From Spongiibacter thalassae (GTDB taxonomy: Bacteria; Pseudomonadota; Gammaproteobacteria; Pseudomonadales; Spongiibacteraceae), in assembly GCF_012272835.1 (NCBI RefSeq), contig NZ_JAAWWK010000001.1:744001-808000 (forward strand): a stretch of DNA of 64,000 nucleotides. Direction: 5' to 3'. Under the pieces are notes generated by a model. It was given only the letters and a program-made list of their open reading frames with translations, was not told the origin of the DNA and made no database searches. The position numbers were made by a program, and so were the translations under genes. Below are positions 15,950-34,318 of the stretch, in pieces. Positions within the stretch are counted from its first letter, which is position 1, and each line of letters starts with the position of its first letter.

Positions 15950-17566
15950 CTAGGTTGCACCGGGACCTTTCGAATCCAGATTGTTGTTTGCTAATTGGCG
16001 CAATAGTCGTCGAGCACCAGCGAGGTTGCAAGTGTCAATAGCGTTTATGAACTGCCAGTACCCAGCTGAGTTGCGACAAGGCCCTTTGTTCTTCTTGGTT
16101 GGGAAATACTCGCTTTCGGTATCGGTTAGGAGAGGTAGGATGACAGCCTGCATAATCGACAATACCGGGTTTTGGCAAACAAGTTCTGTAAAGCGCCAAT
16201 AATCTATTGGAGCACCGGTTGCATCGCAGTATTTCAGATATTCTCGCGCGGCGATGGCGTTGCGCGCCAGCCGTTGTGGGCTGGTTTGGGGGAAGCCGTC
16301 AAATGCCTGCAGTACGAGGTTTTGTAAAAATCGAGTCATACGTGTTGTCGTTGCGCCGGCATATTTTAAATACGACTGCGCTTCGAGTATTGTGGCTTCG
16401 CGGTTGGGCTCTGTGATTACAATGCCCCCGGACCGGCCTTTTGTCGCTGTGACAACTCCGTGATCCTGAAGCATTAATACCGCCTGACGGAGGATGTTCG
16501 GACTTGTTTGATAGCGCTCCATCAGCTCGACACCGGAGCCTATTCGCGCACCATATTCCCAATTATGGTGGCGGACCTCGCGAAGGATCTCCCTGGTAAG
16601 TCGGTCGGCACGGCTGGTCGACTCTTTGAACTCAGGCCTGCTCAAGTCGCCCATTTTCGGATTGAGAATTGGTGTTCTATTAATTTCCTCCCATGTATCC
16701 CAGCTTTCTTTGAAAAAGTTGATCTGGCGCGGGAGATATTCAAAAAGACGGCCAATATCCGCTCCGACAATCGCCTCCACTACCGCCAGGCTCAGTTGCC
16801 AGGATGGGTGGGCTTTCGATTCACCTAAAACAGCTACGCTGTAGGGAATCATGTCCACCGCGCATTCAAATGAGGTGAGCTGTGCCAGATTCAGGGTTGG
16901 CTCAGCGGAAACCAGTCGAATAGCGTTGAAAAGCTGGCGATGAGCACCCAGGCGCATGAACTCGTCATCATTCAGGCGATCGAGACGGTGAGCCAATTGT
17001 AAAAGCTCATTGCAGGCCTCCAATGATAGCGAAGGGACTTCCTCGAGATAGAGCTGATGGTCGATTGACACGGGCAATACGCCGATCTCCATCATATCCC
17101 TCATATCGTGCTCGATCAGTATCGATAGCCCGCGGCTGGCAAAACCGGGCGACCTTTCCTTTACCACTAATCCCCCGTTAACACCTCGGCGTACTTTAGC
17201 GACGCCGCGACTTTCCAGTATTCTCAGGGCCTGCATTAGCACCGGGTGGCCGGTGCGATAGCGTTTGGATAATGCCTCCAGGGAGTCCATCACCGCGCCT
17301 GGCGAAAGCTCTGCCTCGGCAATATCCCGCGCAATTTGGTCGGCGAGTTGATGTCCGGCTGTGGGTGGTTGCTGAAGGTTTTCGGGGTTCAATGGCGCGT
17401 CCTGGTTGGCTAGTGATAGAAGTGGCCTAAGTCTAATGAGGTCATCGAGAATCAGCGGCCTGTTATTAAAGGCTGTGTTTATATATCTGTGAAATTGTAT
17501 GCCGAAGCAATTGTACACCTTGTTGTGTATTCGCTTTTCTGCGCTGCCGATGTGCAAGCGTCCCAT
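15950..17566 (-). CDS. Fused double GntR/FadR-type transcriptional regulator
   Basis: A 538-residue protein, about twice the usual 230-250 of FadR-subfamily GntR regulators. Two winged-helix units are visible. The first (about 72-135) has LEALSKRYRTGHPVLMQALRILESRGVAKVRRG. The second (about 325-390) has ELMERYQTSPNILRQAVLMLQDHGVVTATKGRSGG. Each is followed by about 140 mainly helical residues of effector-domain type. GntR proteins normally act as dimers, so this chain could behave as a built-in dimer. It is divergent from the ferredoxin-P450-TBDR operon, and a RACA-N12-RTGT motif lies between them. The true start may be later than 17566, since residues 1-60 look unstructured. Confidence 0.85.
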   Translation of the reverse strand: MGRLHIGSAEKRIHNKVYNCFGIQFHRYINTAFNNRPLILDDLIRLRPLLSLANQDAPLNPENLQQPPTAGHQLADQIARDIAEAELSPGAVMDSLEALSKRYRTGHPVLMQALRILESRGVAKVRRGVNGGLVVKERSPGFASRGLSILIEHDMRDMMEIGVLPVSIDHQLYLEEVPSLSLEACNELLQLAHRLDRLNDDEFMRLGAHRQLFNAIRLVSAEPTLNLAQLTSFECAVDMIPYSVAVLGESKAHPSWQLSLAVVEAIVGADIGRLFEYLPRQINFFKESWDTWEEINRTPILNPKMGDLSRPEFKESTSRADRLTREILREVRHHNWEYGARIGSGVELMERYQTSPNILRQAVLMLQDHGVVTATKGRSGGIVITEPNREATILEAQSYLKYAGATTTRMTRFLQNLVLQAFDGFPQTSPQRLARNAIAAREYLKYCDATGAPIDYWRFTELVCQNPVLSIMQAVILPLLTDTESEYFPTKKNKGPCRNSAGYWQFINAIDTCNLAGARRLLRQLANNNLDSKGPGAT

Positions 17567-22016: not shown

Positions 22017-23651
22017 ATGTTGGGAATGGGCAATCAGGAAACCTGGAGTGTTGGCACCCGCGACACAGTAATAGATGCACTGGATCGGGCCGTTGCGGCC
22101 CACCCGGATCGGGTGTTATTGGATTTTTCCGGCGATCTGTACACCTACGGGGAGGTCGATAGGCTATCAAATGCCATGGCGCACTCTCTGGCCGACCTGG
22201 GTGTAAAACGCGGCGATACGGTCGTCAGTATGCTGGATAACAATATCGATGCGATTATCAGCTGGCTCGCGGTTAACAAGCTGCGCGCAGTCAGCGTGCC
22301 GATCAACACAGCCCTTCGTGGTATGTTTTTGCAGCACCAGATTGCCGACTCAGGTGCGGGTATTGTGATATGCGAGGCGGAATACGCCGAACGCATCGCT
22401 CAGGTGTCAGGGGAGCTGGATAGCGTTCGACTGGTGTTGCACCGGGACAAGGTGGATGCCGCTGCGCTGGAGGGAAGCACTGAGTTTGCCCCGCTGGACG
22501 ATTATCGCGGTAGTGATGTCAGCGCCTTTAGTGACAAACCGGACCCCGCTGAACTCGCTTGTATTATCTACACATCGGGCACCACTGGGCCATCCAAGGG
22601 CTGTATGCTGAGCTACAACTTCATGTGTAGCTTGGCCCGCCAACAGCTGCGTGCCGGGCCGGCGACGGCGGACGATATTACGATTACGCCGCTGCCACTC
22701 TTCCATATGAATGCGATTTGCGTGGGGGTGATCTCCAATATTCTGGTCGGCGCGCGGGTGGCCATTGTGCCGCGCTTTTCGGTGTCGGGTTTCTGGCCGG
22801 AAGTCGAACGCTCGGGGGCGACCATCGCCTCGATTCTGGGCAGTATGGGCTGGCTTCTCGCTCAGGCTGAAGATAATCCGTCGATGAAAAAATGCCATGG
22901 GCAAATTCACACCGTGCGCGGTAACCCCTTCACCGAGGCTGCCAAGACGATCTGGCGGGATCGCTTCGGCGCGCGTCAGGTGGGCGGGAATGGCTATGGG
23001 CTCACCGAAGCCTGTGTAGTGACTTCGCTACCTGGCGGGGAGTACGCCGCTCCCGGCTCATCGGGCAAGCGTATTCCGGAATACGATGTGCGCATTGTCG
23101 ATGACCTCGATCGGGAGCTGCCTGCAAACACCCCCGGCGAAGTCGTAGTGCGTCCCCTGCATCCCGACGTGATGTTTATGGGCTACTGGCGCCGCCCGGA
23201 GGAAACCCTGAAGCTGATGCGCAATATGTGGTTCCACACCGGCGACATCGGCAAGTTCGACGATGAAGGCTTCTTCTATTTTGTCGACCGTAAAAAAGAT
23301 TATCTTCGACGTCGCGGCGAGAATATTTCCAGTTTTGAAATGGAAGCGGCCTTCCTCAAACACGAGGCTCTTGCCGAGGTCGCAGTACACGCCGTCCCCT
23401 CTGACAAGGGCGAGGACGATGTGAAGGTCACCGCCGTGCTGCACGGCGGGGCGACGCTTACTGCTGAGGACTTGTTCCACTGGTCTACTGACGTGGTGCC
23501 GTACTATGCCTTGCCGCGTTATATCGAGTTCCGCGATTCCCTACCGAAAAACCCCCAGGGCCGGGTGCTCAAGTACCTGCTCAGGGACGAGGGAAAAACC
23601 GCAACGACCTGGGACCTGGAAGACACCGATATTCAGGTGAAAAAGCGCTGA
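22017..23651 (+). CDS. AMP-binding acyl-CoA ligase
   Basis: A 544-residue member of the ANL superfamily. It has the P-loop YTSGTTGPSKGCMLS near residue 186, GYGLTEACV, the hinge/ATP motif HTGDIGKFDDEGFFYFVDRKKDYLRRRGENIS, and a C-terminal PKNPQGRVLKY with the catalytic Lys. Its overall character is closest to the crotonobetaine/carnitine-CoA ligase and cyclohexanecarboxylate-CoA ligase groups. It activates a carboxylic acid to its CoA thioester. First gene after a strong promoter; the Rieske pair follows, which suggests that one substrate is processed by all three. Confidence 0.93.
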   Translation: MLGMGNQETWSVGTRDTVIDALDRAVAAHPDRVLLDFSGDLYTYGEVDRLSNAMAHSLADLGVKRGDTVVSMLDNNIDAIISWLAVNKLRAVSVPINTALRGMFLQHQIADSGAGIVICEAEYAERIAQVSGELDSVRLVLHRDKVDAAALEGSTEFAPLDDYRGSDVSAFSDKPDPAELACIIYTSGTTGPSKGCMLSYNFMCSLARQQLRAGPATADDITITPLPLFHMNAICVGVISNILVGARVAIVPRFSVSGFWPEVERSGATIASILGSMGWLLAQAEDNPSMKKCHGQIHTVRGNPFTEAAKTIWRDRFGARQVGGNGYGLTEACVVTSLPGGEYAAPGSSGKRIPEYDVRIVDDLDRELPANTPGEVVVRPLHPDVMFMGYWRRPEETLKLMRNMWFHTGDIGKFDDEGFFYFVDRKKDYLRRRGENISSFEMEAAFLKHEALAEVAVHAVPSDKGEDDVKVTAVLHGGATLTAEDLFHWSTDVVPYYALPRYIEFRDSLPKNPQGRVLKYLLRDEGKTATTWDLEDTDIQVKKR

Positions 23652-23731: not shown

Positions 23732-24727
23732 ATGTGGTTTCCTGTAGCGGGGTCAGAGCAGGTCAAGGCGGGCGAGGTGTATGCCGCTCAGGTGGGTGAT
23801 CAGGAGCTGGTGCTATTTCGCAATGGTGGCGGCGATATCTGTGTACTGGAGGATCGCTGTCCCCATCGACGGGTGCCGCTGTCGCTGGGTAAGGTCATCG
23901 ACGGGCAGTTGCGCTGCGCCTACCACGGCTGGACCTTCGACGGTAAAGACGGCCACTGTGTGGCGATTCCCAATCTGGATGACGCCGAGCATATTCCTGC
24001 CAGTCTGTGTGCGACCGCATTCCGCACCGCTGAATTCGCCGGTTTTATTTACGTTGCTGTGGCCGGTGAAGGTGCTGGCGACGAAGAATTTCCCTGCTAT
24101 CCCCCCGCAGGCTTCCATTACGAGAAAATCGATAGCGGTTGCGCCGTGGTTAGTGTGTCGTCACAGGAATATCTCGCGGCCATGCTCGATGGCCCCCATA
24201 TTCTGTTAGCGATTCGGGGGATCAATATCAGCGATTTTTACATCGGCGATGTCACCCGTGAAGGTGGCTGTCTCTCTGTCGATCGAACCGCTATCTGGAC
24301 GTTAAAAGCCAAGCCCCACGAAAAATTATGGGGCTTGTCCACGCTGGCATTGCGTACCCAGGTATGCCCGGATCAGTCGGTAGTGCGTCTGCAGTTACTG
24401 GATGCGGGCGAGGAAATTCTACTCGCGGCGGTCATCGCGGTGGTGCCCGGCAAGCGGGGCACCAGTCAACTCCACTGGCGTTGTTACTACTCGCCGAATT
24501 ATCTGCGCTCGGCACCCCGGGGGGTTCGACTGCGCGCGGCCAGGGGAGCGCCCTTTGACGTTTTCGCCGCTGTGAATGGGCAGCGACTGGCTGACTTGAT
24601 GGCAGGCCCATCGGTGGAACTGACTGTTTCCGGCAGTACCGAGGCTGACTCGGCCCCGGCGGAGCGAATTGTACTGAGCGATGTCTCCGAAGTGGAGACG
24701 AGCCCGACCACAGAGGAGAATCTCTGA
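23732..24727 (+). CDS. Rieske [2Fe-2S] oxygenase-like subunit with degenerate catalytic iron site
   Basis: A 331-residue protein. ATG 23732 is chosen because AAGGAG lies 8 bases upstream; an in-frame TTG at 23702 has no such site. The Rieske motif is intact: Cys43-x-His45 and Cys62-x2-His65 (CPHR...CAYHGW). In the C-terminal domain, the stretch that should read D-x2-H-x4-H is Asp153, His156, then Ile161 in place of the second His. The preceding Asn-Leu pattern is also lost. The mononuclear iron site is therefore probably not functional. The stop overlaps the start of the next gene by one base (TGATG), implying translational coupling. It probably delivers electrons to the catalytic partner encoded next. 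Confidence 0.88.
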   Translation: MWFPVAGSEQVKAGEVYAAQVGDQELVLFRNGGGDICVLEDRCPHRRVPLSLGKVIDGQLRCAYHGWTFDGKDGHCVAIPNLDDAEHIPASLCATAFRTAEFAGFIYVAVAGEGAGDEEFPCYPPAGFHYEKIDSGCAVVSVSSQEYLAAMLDGPHILLAIRGINISDFYIGDVTREGGCLSVDRTAIWTLKAKPHEKLWGLSTLALRTQVCPDQSVVRLQLLDAGEEILLAAVIAVVPGKRGTSQLHWRCYYSPNYLRSAPRGVRLRAARGAPFDVFAAVNGQRLADLMAGPSVELTVSGSTEADSAPAERIVLSDVSEVETSPTTEENL

Positions 24728-25770
24728 TGCAACGCCAGCTTATATTGGAACCGGCCGTTGACCGCCCCCAGCGGAAAGCCCATGCTCAGGACGCCTGGTT
24801 ACCCATGGAGATAGAGCTTCGTGACACCTGGTTTCCGCTTGCTCATTCGAATCATGTTGGCGAAACGCCAGTGCGCAGGGCGATGCACCGCCAAACCGCC
24901 TACCTATGGCGCGATCGCGGCCAGGCGATGGCGACAGAGTTTCTTCCTGGGCAGCGCAGCAAGGCATTCAGCCCCTTCACCGCAGGTACAGGCTATTATC
25001 CCTGCTGCGAGTATTTCGGCTATCTCTGGGTGTGGTACGGCAATCCTGAACACGCCGACGAAGCGCTGATTCCCGACATACCCTTTTTGCCCCGTGACGG
25101 CGTGGGGATTCCCAATTATATGCGCACTTCGGTGCGTTTCGACGGCAATGCCCTGCTCTCGGTAGAGAACCTGCTGGATCTGACCCACGCCGATTTTCTC
25201 CACGGTGAGGTCATTGGCGGCGAGGGTGAGGCGGAGTCCGATGAAATCAGTTTCGACCACACCTCAGAGACCCTGACCCGAGTGCGCCATGTTGTTGGCA
25301 AGCCCGTATCACCGGTGATGCGCTGGCTCGGTGGGGTGCGAGCGAAATATCAGGAGTTCCGCTCGACACTGCATGTTCACCTGCGCAGCAATGTGTGTAT
25401 TTCCTATCCGCGCTTTCGGCCGGGTTTTGATATACCCAATATTCAGACCTTCGTGCCGAGCGGCCCTTATCGCTCCCGAGTGGATCAGATTTTCAGTTTG
25501 GGCGACGCGCCGACACCCTTCCGGCAACTGATGCCGCGAATGGCCTATGTAGTTGGCCCCCAGGACAACGCGGTGGTCAGGCCCCAGAACCCACGCTATC
25601 GCGCGGCCCCGTTGCGGCCAGATCAGCATTCACGCTTTGATGCCCCGGGGGTGCGCTATCGCTACCTGATGAAAAAGCTGTGGCAACGACAGCAAACGGG
25701 CGACTACCGATATTTACCGGACGCCAAAGACGCCAGCGATGTTCGCAGCCTGCTCGGTATGGATGGCTGA
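24727..25770 (+). CDS. Rieske-oxygenase catalytic subunit lacking the Rieske cluster site
   Basis: A 347-residue protein. The catalytic domain is canonical: ENLLDLTHADFLH with Asp151, His154 and His159, and a late GPQDNAVV with Asp280 as likely third ligand. The N-terminal domain starts and ends like a Rieske domain (WFPLAHS near 35, YFGYLWVWYG near 97). The middle, where CxH and CxxH should be, is shortened by roughly 60 residues and has neither motif. The protein cannot bind a Rieske cluster in the usual way. Paired with the preceding gene, the two proteins together hold one complete set of cofactors. Gene order and overlap point to a heteromeric oxygenase. Confidence 0.88.
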   Translation: MQRQLILEPAVDRPQRKAHAQDAWLPMEIELRDTWFPLAHSNHVGETPVRRAMHRQTAYLWRDRGQAMATEFLPGQRSKAFSPFTAGTGYYPCCEYFGYLWVWYGNPEHADEALIPDIPFLPRDGVGIPNYMRTSVRFDGNALLSVENLLDLTHADFLHGEVIGGEGEAESDEISFDHTSETLTRVRHVVGKPVSPVMRWLGGVRAKYQEFRSTLHVHLRSNVCISYPRFRPGFDIPNIQTFVPSGPYRSRVDQIFSLGDAPTPFRQLMPRMAYVVGPQDNAVVRPQNPRYRAAPLRPDQHSRFDAPGVRYRYLMKKLWQRQQTGDYRYLPDAKDASDVRSLLGMDG

Positions 25771-25987: not shown

Positions 25988-26788
25988 ATGCAAGCATTTT
26001 TGGAACAGGAGCGCGAGGGCCATATTCTGGTTGCGCGTATGAATCGCCCTGAATCCCGCAACGCCCTGACCAAGCCAGAGTATATGCAGGAGTTTGTTGA
26101 TCTTTGTGCGGACATTCGCCGCAACCGCAGTATTAAAGTGCTGGTATTAACCGGCAATGGGCCGGCATTTTGCGCCGGGGGCAATGTGAAGGACATGCGC
26201 GATCGCACGGGCATCTTTGAAGGCGGCCCTGCAGAGCTGCGCAATCAGTACCGCGATGGAATCCAACGTATTCCCCTGTGTGTCTACGAGCTGGATATCC
26301 CGGTGATCGCGGCCATTAATGGCCCGGCTATTGGCGCGGGCCTGGACCTGGCCTGTATGTGCGATGTGCGGGTGGCCGCGGACTCCGCCAAGTTCGCTGA
26401 AAGTTTTATCAAACTGGGTCTGGTGCCCGGTGACGGCGGTGCATGGTTGTTACAGCGGGTGGTGGGAAAACCACGGGCCACGCTGATGTCATTGACCGGA
26501 GACACCATCAACAGCGAACAGGCGCTTGAGTGGGGACTGATTACCGAGTCGGTTCCCGCGGACGAACTGATGGACTGCGCCATGGGTATTGCCCGCAGCA
26601 TGGCGGCAAACCCTGCCCATGCACTGCGCATGACCAAGCGCCTGTTGCGTGAAGCCGAGCACCTTAGCCTGCCATCGTTGCTGGAAATGTCGGCGGCCTA
26701 TCAGGCTCTGGCCCACCATACAGAAGATCACAGCGAGGCGGTAAACGCCTTTCTGGAACGCCGCGAACCCCGGTACACCGGCAATTAA
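25988..26788 (+). CDS. Enoyl-CoA hydratase/isomerase family protein
   Basis: A 266-residue crotonase-fold protein with GNGPAFCAGGNVKDM and GPAIGAGLDLACMCDVRVA forming the oxyanion pocket. The two catalytic Glu of hydratases are not in their usual context: GLDLACM has Asp where GCELA is expected. ESFIKLGLVPGDGG replaces the PEI of the second site, a pattern also seen in isomerase-like subgroups. It may therefore be an isomerase or a hydratase with shifted residues. AGGAG precedes the ATG. It is 63 bases before an acyl-CoA dehydrogenase, in a beta-oxidation-type operon. Confidence 0.9.
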   Translation: MQAFLEQEREGHILVARMNRPESRNALTKPEYMQEFVDLCADIRRNRSIKVLVLTGNGPAFCAGGNVKDMRDRTGIFEGGPAELRNQYRDGIQRIPLCVYELDIPVIAAINGPAIGAGLDLACMCDVRVAADSAKFAESFIKLGLVPGDGGAWLLQRVVGKPRATLMSLTGDTINSEQALEWGLITESVPADELMDCAMGIARSMAANPAHALRMTKRLLREAEHLSLPSLLEMSAAYQALAHHTEDHSEAVNAFLERREPRYTGN

Positions 26789-26851: not shown

Positions 26852-27985
26852 ATGAGAGCAGTATTCCGCGAAGACCACGAAATGTTCCGCGACATGGCGC
26901 GTCGGTTTATCGACAAGGAAATTGTTCCCCATCTCGACGAGTGGGAAAAGCAGGGCATCGTGCCCAAGGAAATCTGGCAAAAGGCGGGACAGGCGGGCCT
27001 GCTGTGCTCCTGTGTCAGCGAAGAATTCGGTGGCCCCGGTGGCGACTATGGCCATTCAGCGGTAATGATTGAAGAGTTGGCGCGGGTAAACGCCACGGCC
27101 ATTGGCTTTACCACCCACTCGGAAATCGTTGCCAATTACTTTGTGGCCTACGGCAACAAGGAACAGAACGCGAAGTGGCTGCCCGGTATGGTGTCGGGAG
27201 ACACCATCGGCGTGATCGCCATGAGTGAACCCGGTATCGGCAGCGACTTGCGCTCCATGCGCACCCTGGCTCGCCGCGAGGGTGACGAGTATGTTATCAG
27301 CGGTCAGAAAACCTTTATCACCAACGGTGGCAATGCCGATCTGGTTGTGCTGGCCTGTAAACTGGATCCGGCGTCCCGCGACCTGACCCTGATCTGTGTG
27401 GAGACCGATCGCCCCGGCTTTAGCAAGGGGCGACTGCTGGACAAAATCGGATTGAAGGGCCAGGACACCTCCGAACTGTTTTTTGACGATGTTCGAGTGC
27501 CGGTCAGCAACCGTTTGGGTGAAGAAAACAAGGGCTTTAATTATCTGACCCACCAGCTTGCCTGGGAGAGATTGATAATCGGTATTCGCGCCGCTGCCTC
27601 GGTGGACAGCCTGTTGGCCGACACGATTCAGTACACTGTCGACCGCAAGGTGTTTGGCAAGACGGTGTTCGATTTCCAGAACACCCGTTTCAAGCTCGCC
27701 GAGGTGAAGGCCAAGGCCACCATGCTGCGGGCCTTTATTGACAGCTGTTTGCACAAGGTATTGCAGGGCGAGCTGAGTGCCGACGAAGCAGCGATGGCCA
27801 AGTTGATGGGCTCGGAAATGCAGGGGCAGTTGCTCGACGAATTGCTGCAGCTGCACGGCGGCTATGGCTTCATGACCGAATACCGTATCAGTCGCGCGTG
27901 GGTTGATGCACGGGTGGCACGGATTTACGGTGGCACCTCCGAAATAATGAAGGAAATCATTTCCCGCTCGTTGAAACCACAATGA
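26852..27985 (+). CDS. Acyl-CoA dehydrogenase
   Basis: A 377-residue flavoprotein of the usual length. It has the FAD/substrate signature AMSEPGIGSDL, FITNGGNADL in the mid-domain, and a C-terminal LHGGYGFMTEY...IYGGTSEIM. The Glu of the medium-chain type (YEGT) is Gly here, but HQLAWERL in helix G carries a Glu where long-chain and isovaleryl-CoA dehydrogenases keep their catalytic base. That points to a long-chain, branched or bulky acyl-CoA substrate. Its stop overlaps the start of the next MFS gene by four bases (ATGA), so the two are coupled. Confidence 0.93.
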   Translation: MRAVFREDHEMFRDMARRFIDKEIVPHLDEWEKQGIVPKEIWQKAGQAGLLCSCVSEEFGGPGGDYGHSAVMIEELARVNATAIGFTTHSEIVANYFVAYGNKEQNAKWLPGMVSGDTIGVIAMSEPGIGSDLRSMRTLARREGDEYVISGQKTFITNGGNADLVVLACKLDPASRDLTLICVETDRPGFSKGRLLDKIGLKGQDTSELFFDDVRVPVSNRLGEENKGFNYLTHQLAWERLIIGIRAAASVDSLLADTIQYTVDRKVFGKTVFDFQNTRFKLAEVKAKATMLRAFIDSCLHKVLQGELSADEAAMAKLMGSEMQGQLLDELLQLHGGYGFMTEYRISRAWVDARVARIYGGTSEIMKEIISRSLKPQ

Positions 27986-30638: not shown

Positions 30639-30796
30639 GCCCTGTTGTTGGGTTGCTGTGATGGCCATTAAAAATATTAATACCAGGCCGGAAAATCTTT
30701 AAATATACGATAAGTGAATGTTTTTCTAGAATCTGTTCAATAAATAAAAATCCTGTGCCGTCAAAGCGGCGCTGGCTGACAAGAATAGGTAGCACA

Positions 30797-33700
30797 ATGA
30801 GTTCTGAGTTCATCGTTACACCGTCCTTGCGGGACGTTGAGTTACACGACAAATATACCCTTGAGCAGGGCCACATTTACGCCAGTGGCACCCAGGCATT
30901 GGTACGACTGCCGATGATGCAGCAGTTGCGCGACCAGCGCGCGGGGCTGAATACAGCGGGGTATATTTCCGGCTATCGCGGCTCGCCCCTTGGCGGTGTG
31001 GATATGGCACTGTGGGCGGCGAAAAAGGAAATGGCGCAAAAGAATATTGTCTTTCAGCCAGGCTTGAACGAAGACCTCGCGGCGACGGCGGTCTGGGGTA
31101 CTCAGCAAACCAACCTCTATGACGGTGCGCGCTACGACGGTGTATTTGGAATGTGGTACGGCAAGGGGCCGGGGGTGGATCGCTCCGCTGACGTACTCAA
31201 GCACGCCAATTCCGCGGGGACTTCACGCCACGGCGGCGTGCTGATGTTGGCCGGGGATGATCACGCCGCCAAGTCCTCGTCGATCGCCCACCAGTCAGAG
31301 CATATTCTTATTGCCTGTGGTATTCCGGTGTTGTACCCCGCCAATGTGCAGGAGTATCTGGATTTCGGCCTGCACGGTTGGGCGATGAGCCGCTATTCCG
31401 GCCTGTGGGTGGGGATGAAATGCGTGACCGATGTGGTGGAGTCTTCAGCCTCGTTGGAGGTCGATCCTGATCGGGTCAATATTCTATTGCCGGATGATTT
31501 CCAGATGCCGGAAGGCGGCTTGAATATTCGCTGGCCCGATACGCCCCTCGATCAGGAGGTGCGTATGCTCAATTACAAATGGTATGCGGCGCTGGAGTAT
31601 ATTCGCGCCAATAAGCTGAACCGCGTGGTGCTGGATTCACCCAAGGCGCGTTTTGGCATTATGGCGGCGGGCAAGGCCTATCTCGATTTACGCCAGGCTT
31701 TGGTGGATCTCGGCCTGGATGATGACACCTGTCGCCAGCTCGGCATTCGCATAATGAAGGTCGGCTGCGTATGGCCGCTGGACGCTCGTGACTCACGGGC
31801 CTTCGCCGAGGGCTTGGAGGAAATTCTGGTCGTCGAGGAAAAACGGCAGATTCTGGAGTACGCCCTGAAAGAAGAACTGTACAACTGGCGGGAGGACGTA
31901 CGCCCTCGGGTTTACGGCAAATTCGATGAGCGCGACAACGCCGGTGGTGAATGGTCCCAGCCACGGGGCAACTGGTTGCTGCCTGCGCGCTATGAACTTT
32001 CCCCGGCGATTATCGCCAAGGCCATTGCCTCACGATTGACTCGAATGCCCCTCAGTGACGAGGTCAGGGCGCGTATTCTATCCCGCATTGACATTATTGA
32101 GGGCAAGGAGCGGGCAGCGGAACAAACCGGTATGCCAGTGGAACGCAAACCCTGGTTTTGCTCGGGTTGCCCTCATAACACGTCGACAAAAGTCCCGGAA
32201 GGCTCCCGTGCGCTGGCGGGCATCGGTTGCCACTACATGGCAATGTGGATGGACCGCAACACTGAAACCTTCAGTCAGATGGGAGGGGAGGGTGTCAGCT
32301 GGTTGGGCCAGATGCATTTCACCAGCGACAAGCATGTGTTTGTTAACCTTGGCGACGGTACCTATTTCCACTCCGGTTTGCTGGCGATTCGCGCTGCCGT
32401 GGCGGCCTCGGCCAATATGACCTACAAAATACTGTTTAACGACGCGGTGGCAATGACCGGTGGCCAGCCGGTAGACGGGGTGCTGACCGTGCCCCAGATT
32501 GTCGAGCAGCTCAAGGCCGAAGCCGTCGCCGAAATTCTGGTGGTGTCCGACGAGCCCGAAAAGTATCGTGGAAGCTACGCCGTCTCTGTTCCGGTGCATC
32601 ATCGCGATGAACTCGAGGCGATCCAGCTGCGCTTGCGCGACACTGCGGGTGTCACTGTTATTGTCTACGACCAAACCTGTGCCACGGAAAAACGCCGCCG
32701 CCGCAAGCGCGGCTTGATGGTGGATGTAAAGCGCAGGGCCTACATCAACCCGGCAGTGTGCGAAGGTTGTGGCGATTGCTCGGTGGCGTCGGGTTGTGTG
32801 TCTGTAGAACCTCTGGAAACGCCTCTGGGCACCAAACGGCAAATTAACCAGAATAGTTGTAACAAGGACTTTTCCTGCTTGAAGGGCTTTTGCCCGAGCT
32901 TTGTTACCATCGAAGGTGGCGAGCTGCGTCGCCCCGAAGGGAAAGCGGGAGCGCGGGATATTCTTGGGGATATTCCCGACCCGGTATTGCCTTCACTTGA
33001 GCAGCCCTTCGGTGTTGTGGTGGCCGGAATCGGCGGCACCGGTGTGGTGACGATAGGGGCATTGATGGGTATGGCCGCCCATCTCGAGTCGAAGGGAATT
33101 ACCGTACTCGACCAGACCGGTCTCGCCCAGAAGGGCGGTGCGGTAATGAGCCATATTCAGATCGCTGCCCGCCCTGAAGACATTCACGCTACCCGCATCG
33201 CCGTTGCCGAAACCGCAACCCTGATCGGCTGTGACGAAATTGTTGCCGCCTCCAACGACGTACTGTCGCGGGTGAAGGGTGGTCTGACCAAGGCAGTTAT
33301 CAACACAGCACTGACGCCGGCGGCGGAGTTTCTGTCCAATCCGGACTGGAAGTTTCCCAAGACAACCGCCGAGGGCAATATCCAGCAAGCGCTGGGCGAT
33401 GATTGCGACTATATCGACGCAACCTCACTTGCCGAAACGGTGATGGGCGACAGTATTTTCGCCAACCCGTTAATGCTGGGCTACGCCTGGCAGAAGGGCT
33501 GGGTACCGCTGTCCTATCAAGCATTGATCCGCGCCATTGAGCTGAACGGTGTGGCGGTGGACAAAAATATTGATGCCTTTGAATGGGGACGTGTTGCCGC
33601 CCACGACCGTGGTCTGCTACCTGAGGTGGAGTCTGATACCCGTGCGGTGCAGTGGGTCGAGCCGGAAACCCTCGACGATGTGGTTGCCCGGGGAGTGGCA

Positions 33701-34318
33701 CTGCTGACCGAGTATCAGGACGAAGGCTATGCGAAGCGCTATACCGACGCGGTGGAAAAAGTGCGCTGTGCCGAGGACAAGGTGGCACCCAATCGCGGTG
33801 CGCCCCTTAGTATCGCCGTCGCCCGAAACCTGATGAAGTTGATGGCCTACAAAGACGAATATGAGGTGGCGCGCCTGCATGCATCACCGGTTTTCCAGCA
33901 GCAGTTGGAACAACAATTTGCGGGTAAGCCGGGCAAGGACTACCAGGTGCATTTCCACATGGCGCCGCCGCTGATTTCCAAAAAAGATGCTAACGGACAC
34001 TTGATTAAACGCCGTTTCGGCCCGTGGATGCTGCCGATGTTCAAGTTGCTGGCCAAAATGAAGTTTTTGCGCGGCTCGGTGCTGGATGTCTTTTCTCACA
34101 CCGACGAGCGTCGTCAGGAAAGGCAGTGGATCAATGACTATCTCGCCTTTGTCGACGAAGTGAGTCACTCATTGACCCGTGAACGTTTGGAAATTGCCAT
34201 TGCTAGAGCGGAAGTACCGCAGAATATACGCGGTTTCGGTCATGTCAAAGAGCGCAATATGGTTGCCGCCCGTACTCGCTGGCAGGTACTGAAACAGGAC
34301 TATGACGGCAAGGCGTGA
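30797..34318 (+). CDS. Indolepyruvate:ferredoxin oxidoreductase, fused single-chain form
   Basis: 1173 residues from the ATG at 30797, which follows an AGG site; the in-frame GTG at 30755 lacks one. The N-terminal pyrimidine/TPP part begins with the GYRGSPLGG segment. The mid-protein has CSGCPHN and GIGCHYM, then DGTYFHSGLLAIRAA of the TPP domain and CEGCGDCSVASGC (an iron-sulfur motif). The C-terminal gamma domain has GIGGTGVVTIGALMGMAA. The length and order are those of the fused enzyme of aerobic proteobacteria, which decarboxylates aryl- or branched 2-oxoacids to acyl-CoA with a ferredoxin. It sits alone between the MFS pair and the APH gene. Its link to the island is uncertain, though it could oxidise a 2-oxoacid intermediate. 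Confidence 0.93.
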   Translation: MSSEFIVTPSLRDVELHDKYTLEQGHIYASGTQALVRLPMMQQLRDQRAGLNTAGYISGYRGSPLGGVDMALWAAKKEMAQKNIVFQPGLNEDLAATAVWGTQQTNLYDGARYDGVFGMWYGKGPGVDRSADVLKHANSAGTSRHGGVLMLAGDDHAAKSSSIAHQSEHILIACGIPVLYPANVQEYLDFGLHGWAMSRYSGLWVGMKCVTDVVESSASLEVDPDRVNILLPDDFQMPEGGLNIRWPDTPLDQEVRMLNYKWYAALEYIRANKLNRVVLDSPKARFGIMAAGKAYLDLRQALVDLGLDDDTCRQLGIRIMKVGCVWPLDARDSRAFAEGLEEILVVEEKRQILEYALKEELYNWREDVRPRVYGKFDERDNAGGEWSQPRGNWLLPARYELSPAIIAKAIASRLTRMPLSDEVRARILSRIDIIEGKERAAEQTGMPVERKPWFCSGCPHNTSTKVPEGSRALAGIGCHYMAMWMDRNTETFSQMGGEGVSWLGQMHFTSDKHVFVNLGDGTYFHSGLLAIRAAVAASANMTYKILFNDAVAMTGGQPVDGVLTVPQIVEQLKAEAVAEILVVSDEPEKYRGSYAVSVPVHHRDELEAIQLRLRDTAGVTVIVYDQTCATEKRRRRKRGLMVDVKRRAYINPAVCEGCGDCSVASGCVSVEPLETPLGTKRQINQNSCNKDFSCLKGFCPSFVTIEGGELRRPEGKAGARDILGDIPDPVLPSLEQPFGVVVAGIGGTGVVTIGALMGMAAHLESKGITVLDQTGLAQKGGAVMSHIQIAARPEDIHATRIAVAETATLIGCDEIVAASNDVLSRVKGGLTKAVINTALTPAAEFLSNPDWKFPKTTAEGNIQQALGDDCDYIDATSLAETVMGDSIFANPLMLGYAWQKGWVPLSYQALIRAIELNGVAVDKNIDAFEWGRVAAHDRGLLPEVESDTRAVQWVEPETLDDVVARGVALLTEYQDEGYAKRYTDAVEKVRCAEDKVAPNRGAPLSIAVARNLMKLMAYKDEYEVARLHASPVFQQQLEQQFAGKPGKDYQVHFHMAPPLISKKDANGHLIKRRFGPWMLPMFKLLAKMKFLRGSVLDVFSHTDERRQERQWINDYLAFVDEVSHSLTRERLEIAIARAEVPQNIRGFGHVKERNMVAARTRWQVLKQDYDGKA

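Follow-up and report, generated by a model that had tools for sequence, protein, structure and literature searches.

In a 64,000-nucleotide stretch of Spongiibacter thalassae DNA (the window, positions 744,001 to 808,000 of contig NZ_JAAWWK010000001.1, numbered here from its first nucleotide), two adjacent genes encode proteins, chain A and chain B, that carry complementary sets of Rieske oxygenase metal ligands. We propose, with a probability of roughly 0.85, that the two chains are both required as subunits of a single Rieske non-haem iron oxygenase, in which the [2Fe-2S] cluster of A feeds electrons to the iron of B. Support for this proposal comes from the complementary ligand sets, their conservation, the adjacency of the genes, the co-divergence of the chains and their predicted single-chain folds. 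The two genes are as follows.

Chain A gene, 23732..24727, plus strand: 331 amino acids, with an intact Rieske domain (1-110) and a degenerate catalytic domain (~131-300) lacking iron ligands
Chain B gene, 24727..25770, plus strand: 347 amino acids, with a relict Rieske fold (28-107) lacking the cluster loops and a VanA_C-type catalytic domain

Both frames are open and overlap by one base, as the original prediction of a split oxygenase at this locus had stated: A runs from an ATG at 23732 to a TGA stop at 24725-24727, and the ATG of B begins at 24727. Public annotation does not connect the two genes: three plasmids list A as a Rieske (2Fe-2S) protein, with B given as 'oxygenase' in two of them and as 'aromatic ring-hydroxylating dioxygenase subunit alpha' in the third.

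A scan of one-genome-per-species contigs with an alignment of B gave 70 loci. Of these, 55 hold B chains of the full family (best-segment identity 37-75%), and the other 15, ordinary one-chain oxygenases, serve as controls. With the window included, the counts below refer to 54 A chains and 56 B chains. Near copies among Pseudomonas are retained in these counts (the A and B chains of loci L059 and L061 are identical), contig ends cut the B chains of L084 and L094 and the A chain of L092, and at L101, where a second B gene follows a pair, it is the unpaired second copy that is counted.

Chain A has kept the cluster site and lost the iron site. In Pfam its residues 2-85 match the Rieske domain (3.2e-24) and no part of it matches a catalytic-domain family, and its phmmer alignments to SxtT, SxtDIOX and dicamba monooxygenase run through the Rieske half. 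Two short stretches of the gene encode the residues in question.

Rieske ligand codons of A, 23858..23926, plus strand: C43 (23858), H45 (23864), C62 (23915) and H65 (23924)
Iron-motif remnant of A, 24188..24214, plus strand: D153-x2-H156-x4-I161

Both are as first described, a full C-x-H ... C-x2-H motif for the [2Fe-2S] cluster and an iron motif broken at I161. Across the family C43, C62 and H65 are present in 54/54 A chains and H45 in 53/54, the remaining chain (L062) having an unreadable X; all four ligands are present in 15/15 controls. The extent of the loss at the iron site had, however, been understated. The first His of the iron motif is found in 3/54 A chains, the window among the 3, and the second in 0/54. 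No A chain (0/54) thus has both iron His residues or qualifies as a single alpha subunit with both metal sites on one chain, and the third ligand is likewise absent from all of them, its column holding Val, Met, Leu, Ile, Pro or Thr in 54/54 (Asp in three controls). An alternative His pair in A, a possibility raised with the original prediction, is not conserved in the alignment of the 54 chains: C76 and the four ligands are the only His or Cys columns to reach 70% of them, and after residue 110 five Asp columns do so (153, 168, 173, 202 and 282). The catalytic remnant retains P155 (54/54) and W249 (53/54), and the motif Asp at the D153 position, which in ordinary Rieske oxygenases bridges subunits, is kept in 47/54.

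Chain B has kept the iron site and lost the cluster. Its only Pfam match is to VanA_C (2.6e-32, residues 139-319), with no Rieske family among the matches, and phmmer aligned guaiacol O-demethylase (7qwt) and four other proteins through the catalytic half.

Cluster-loop deletion of B, 24934..24999, plus strand: residues 70-91
Iron motif of B, 25165..25203, plus strand: E147 N148 x2 D151 x2 H154 x4 H159, invariant in 56/56 B chains
Q279 D280 of B, 25561..25566, plus strand: D280 is the third ligand

The 2-His-1-carboxylate site (N-x2-D-x2-H-x4-H and a late Asp) is complete in 56/56 B chains, and in the window D151, H154, H159 and D280 are all present where they had been reported. Q279 and D280 are invariant as well (56/56); the residue before the last Asp is Glu in 14/15 controls, and a Gln at this position is a signature of the B family. 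The earlier claim that the Rieske domain of B has lost its cluster-ligand loops holds throughout the family, the segment corresponding to residues 70-91 being 18-27 residues long in the 56 B chains versus 55 or 57 in the 15 ordinary oxygenases. The window chain has lost about 30 residues, including all cluster ligands, and the four cluster-ligand columns are gaps in 56/56 B chains and ligands in 15/15 controls. Nor does the relict domain contain a substitute set of Cys/His ligands: only the H40 and H54 columns reach at least 70%, and no Cys column does. Cluster motifs can be read by letter in 2/56 B chains (C-x-H and C-x2-H in that of L089, C-x2-H in that of L109); both were rejected, having gaps at the aligned ligand columns.

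The two genes occur together. An A chain lies directly upstream of B in 53 of the 55 loci outside the window, the exceptions being L101 and L084, the latter cut within B by the end of its contig; the stop-to-start distance ranges from -52 to +93 bases, with a 4-base overlap in 11/53 (starts chosen automatically). A search of genomes for fused neighbours with the same complementary losses was suggested with the original prediction. The pair recurs with these losses, and finding it arranged alike in 53 of the 55 loci outside the window rules out chance and sequencing error. No natural A-B fusion occurs among the 55 loci, and no open frame there scores highly with both profiles. By record title, 46 of the loci are from Pseudomonadota, 6 from Actinomycetota and 3 from one assembly labelled Verrucomicrobiota, a label that is doubtful. 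This assembly, G029, is the same as that of the Verrucomicrobiaceae metagenome-assembled genome RYN_599 (L051-L053, L093, L102, L108), yet it is also grouped in the window's order. One of its two taxonomic labels must be wrong, and we therefore claim no Verrucomicrobiota member.

Among 293 genomes of the window's order, 51 have some B match, mostly partial, and 3 have full-length relatives, with one copy in the window genome, one in G135 and three in G029. The copies outside the window all sit directly after an A-type gene (4/4). A reciprocal search with A chains recovered these 5 places in the 3 genomes, and also 3 weaker partial matches in other genomes of the order, which carry both motifs on one chain. 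Solitary A-type genes were found neither in these 293 genomes (among the best 7 or fewer candidates per genome) nor in 20 family-bearing genomes picked from the 55 loci for spread. Those 20 genomes hold 24 B genes and 23 strong A matches (at least 155 bits), each of the 23 with a B beside it; the surplus B belongs to L101 (Mycolicibacter senuensis), in which an A-B pair is followed by a second B gene without an A of its own. On the earlier question of partners occurring alone, then, no solitary A was seen, and one B copy stands in a tandem that suggests that two catalytic chains may share one Rieske chain. In a sample of the phylum the B profile found the window genome only (1/398, among the best 5 or fewer candidates per genome), and with so few candidates per genome we regard the family as sparse rather than absent. 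Any B match at all was found in 67 plasmid records, and at least 80% of B is covered in 4.

The two chains have also diverged in step. Pairwise identities among A chains and among B chains correlate with r 0.878 over 44 non-redundant pairs (10 of the 54 pairs having been removed as more than 95% alike), a value reached by 0/2000 permutations. In a tree of 47 one-chain enzymes with 31 chains of each kind (from the window and from 30 loci chosen among the 53 that are paired), the A chains form one group and the B chains another, each with a support of 100 in the Shimodaira-Hasegawa-like approximate likelihood-ratio test (SH-aLRT), so that the pairing looks to have had one origin. A quick free tree left A and B unjoined, and a tree holding them together was 11.7 log units better (p-AU, from the approximately unbiased test, 0.739). 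The original prediction saw in A and B divided-labour partners derived from a duplicated ancestor. The first part of that view is strongly supported by adjacency, co-occurrence, correlated divergence and invariant complementary ligands; common ancestry by duplication may hold, being compatible with the tree test, which does not reject it and does not demonstrate it.

AlphaFold2 models, made from alignments of 40 rows for A (actinobacterial A chains excluded) and 46 for B, predict both chains to be whole two-domain oxygenase subunits, with a Rieske and a catalytic fold in each. The models of both chains align over both domains to 3gte_C and 3gke_A, that of A over residues 1-309, and dicamba monooxygenase DdmC (3gke, 3gb4, 3gte) is the best or tied best structural match of the models for both chains and both domains. 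Unlike the pair, DdmC carries both metal centres on one chain; it is an alpha3 trimer (PMC12445004).

We infer that A and B form a complex in which electrons from a ferredoxin or reductase encoded elsewhere would reach the [2Fe-2S] cluster of A. From there they would cross, by way of H65 in A and the bridging D151 in B, to the iron, which in B would be held by H154, H159 and D280. Oxygen would be activated at that iron and a bulky terpenoid acid or coenzyme A (CoA) ester oxygenated, the class of substrate being suggested by the gene neighbours. The degenerate catalytic domain of A and the cluster-free Rieske fold of B may have been retained as assembly surfaces. In such a complex electron storage and oxygen activation would be wholly separated, with no chain having both cluster and iron.

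Upstream of the pair lie genes for a P450, a TonB receptor and an acyl-CoA ligase; downstream are an enoyl-CoA hydratase, an acyl-CoA dehydrogenase, two MFS transporters and a 1187-amino-acid open frame. Several of these have counterparts near the pair of Paraburkholderia xenovorans LB400.

Cytochrome P450, 18056..19282, plus strand: 29% identical to an LB400 P450 near that strain's pair
Acyl-CoA ligase directly upstream of the pair, 22017..23651, plus strand: a 74-84% homologue lies on the pair's contig in 13/20 genomes
Enoyl-CoA hydratase (from Pfam), 25988-26788, plus strand: downstream of the pair
Acyl-CoA dehydrogenase, 26852-27985, plus strand: 78% to one in the LB400 region
1187-amino-acid open frame with a GTG start, 30755-34318: 66% to its LB400-region counterpart

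By eye, the long frame resembles a putative fused indolepyruvate ferredoxin oxidoreductase. Elsewhere in the window, 15950-17566 (minus strand) encodes a 538-amino-acid regulator with two GntR-type stretches (73-129, and ~320-400 by NCBIfam), as if regulators had been fused, and the window genome as a whole (4.4 Mb; G000 in our set) has 20 Rieske-domain matches, many in oxygenase-sized frames.

On chromosome 3 of LB400 the pair (L088) occupies 646-648 kb. Homologues in the region correspond to the window's CoA ligase (76-77%), acyl-CoA dehydrogenase (78%), second MFS transporter (55%) and long frame (66%); an HcaE-like alpha subunit (604 kb), two P450s (617 and 654 kb) and a BphC-like (extradiol-type) dioxygenase (663 kb) are found there too. 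By this parts list the region is a candidate for the dit cluster of the strain, and the substrate is therefore a proposed one. Clusters of dit genes, for abietane diterpenoids, are placed in LB400 and in the Pseudomonas strains P. abietaniphila and P. fluorescens F113 by PMC13063091, PMC10710418 and PMC3570484; the gene lists in PMC12628601 include a ring-hydroxylating dioxygenase, a ring-cleavage dioxygenase and a CoA ligase, and the P450 DitQ is counted among dit genes in PMC13063091. The LB400 region holds, beside the pair, a comparable set of parts in the HcaE-like alpha subunit, two P450s, the CoA ligase and the extradiol-type dioxygenase; the passages of the dit literature examined give no role for the pair. 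An HcaE-like alpha subunit is present in 17 of the 20 genomes (E 1e-60 or better), and in all 17 a copy (42-100% identity) shares a contig with a B gene, at 1.9-72.6 kb; it is a candidate ditA1-type subunit. In the window genome a 73% homologue is found at C1:851707, about 82 kb downstream.

The A/B family is catabolic by context, and from the gene neighbours we propose that it acts on a polycyclic acid, which may be a diterpenoid, or on the CoA ester of such an acid. The chance that the same heteromer acts instead on something other than a diterpenoid, for example a steroid, another terpenoid or a hydrocarbon-derived acid, is in our view only a little short of even. Two sphingomonad loci on alphaproteobacterial plasmids, L125 (Novosphingobium) and L127 (Croceicoccus), have different neighbours, namely the coenzyme F420 biosynthesis genes cofC, cofH and npdG (with cofD and cofE also in L127), F420-type LLM oxidoreductases, luciferase-like oxidoreductases and sulfotransferases; many of the genes in the window cluster are generic CoA-pathway genes; and both chains match the 4beta-methylsterol monooxygenase model, far below cut-off. 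Against such a substrate stand the likeness of the window to the LB400 region and the linkage of an HcaE-like alpha subunit in 17/20 genomes.

Several points weigh against the proposed heteromer or the substrate assigned to it. The structural support consists of predicted models of single chains, and one B copy, in L101, has no A of its own. The catalytic remnant of A diverges faster than its Rieske domain (0.298 versus 0.518), as would also suit a part without a role. Within the window there is no PF00175 NAD-binding reductase domain and no Fer2 ferredoxin; Fer2 matches on the same contig lie ~91 kb before the window start and 66 kb after its end. The substrate is assigned by association; the alpha subunit is missing at the cut-off in 3/20 genomes (two Trinickia and one Streptomyces), the window-type ligase is missing in 7/20 (two Trinickia, Streptomyces, G673, G675, G676 and G677), and the neighbours of L125 and L127 are different ones. 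Finally, structurally characterised Rieske oxygenases are C3-symmetric trimers or stacked trimers (PMC12445004). By our reasoning a ring of three admits one A-to-B cluster-to-iron contact, so that two positions of a mixed ring go to waste, unless the subunits assemble in another way; the assembly must, in other words, be either wasteful or unusual, and the 3+3 arrangement of the original prediction does not derive simply from the known trimer. We give even odds to an A-B hetero-oligomer that departs from the C3 homotrimer, either as an asymmetric mixed trimer with a single productive contact or as a trimer of AB heterodimers, in which the Rieske domain of A and the catalytic domain of B would form the core ring and the dead domains an outer shell.

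We consider it unlikely that B is instead an NdmC-like oxygenase served by A as a dedicated electron carrier, with a vestigial tail and no structural part in a mixed ring. The 7-methylxanthine N-demethylase NdmC/NdmD/NdmE (NdmCDE), as presented in PMC4408171, is alike in having a catalytic chain without a Rieske cluster that draws on the cluster of another protein, the Rieske domain there sitting on the reductase, and the catalytic remnant of A is its fastest-evolving domain. In the same source, however, the Rieske domain is fused to a reductase and a GST-like protein is needed, whereas in the pair the Rieske domain is on an oxygenase-like chain encoded upstream. A has Rieske matches only and no reductase domain, and PF00175 has no match in the window; no GST-like partner is among the window frames given to Pfam, no GST-directed search having been made. 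Moreover, the model of A, aligned over 1-309, is of a whole two-domain oxygenase subunit, its remnant keeps P155 (54/54), W249 (53/54) and D153 (47/54), for which a carrier has no obvious need, and the adjacency and co-divergence of A and B also speak against a mere carrier. It is very improbable that A and B form separate homotrimers that share no electrons, one of them serving some purpose other than oxygenation, for example to sense or bind substrate. Homo-assembly is the default among the known C3 trimers and stacked trimers (PMC12445004), but the iron of B would then have no adjacent cluster and the cluster of A no acceptor, in spite of the conservation of both sets of ligands. That the pair is a decaying duplicate, or the product of an error in assembly or frame, could explain the loss of one metal site in each chain, and is rejected with near certainty by the recurrence of the pair at 53/55 loci in Pseudomonadota and Actinomycetota, the open frames and the conserved ligands.

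The preferred reading of A and B as obligatory partners in one oxygenase has precedents. In the chlorophyllide a oxygenase of Micromonas pusilla (MpCAO), the Rieske centre is reportedly on one chain and the mononuclear iron on the other (Kunugi et al. 2013). Likened to the pair by its description, MpCAO, which the original prediction did not mention, appears to be the closest precedent. A heterodimer was the earlier suggestion for MpCAO, and a structure resembling a trimer of dimers has since been argued to be likelier (PMC9615114); it shares with the A-B pair the same doubt over assembly. MpCAO differs in being eukaryotic and in serving chlorophyll b synthesis; the context of the bacterial pair is catabolic, and the cluster loops are deleted from its B chain. 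A bacterial Rieske oxygenase divided between two chains in this way is not described in the titles and abstract openings listed by the literature searches, with subscription literature mostly outside them. New here are a conserved bacterial family with fully separated metal centres and the puzzle of its stoichiometry; the idea itself has precedents in MpCAO and NdmCDE.

Electrons in Rieske oxygenases are thought to cross between subunits, leaving the cluster of one and arriving at the iron of its neighbour. In a homotrimer each chain carries both centres, so that cluster and iron cannot be supplied apart; in the A-B pair the centres are on different chains, and each could therefore be produced, loaded, mutated and titrated by itself. 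The pair would be a natural system for the study of inter-subunit electron transfer, and it is a candidate oxygenase for poorly understood steps in the breakdown of terpenoids, perhaps of resin acids.
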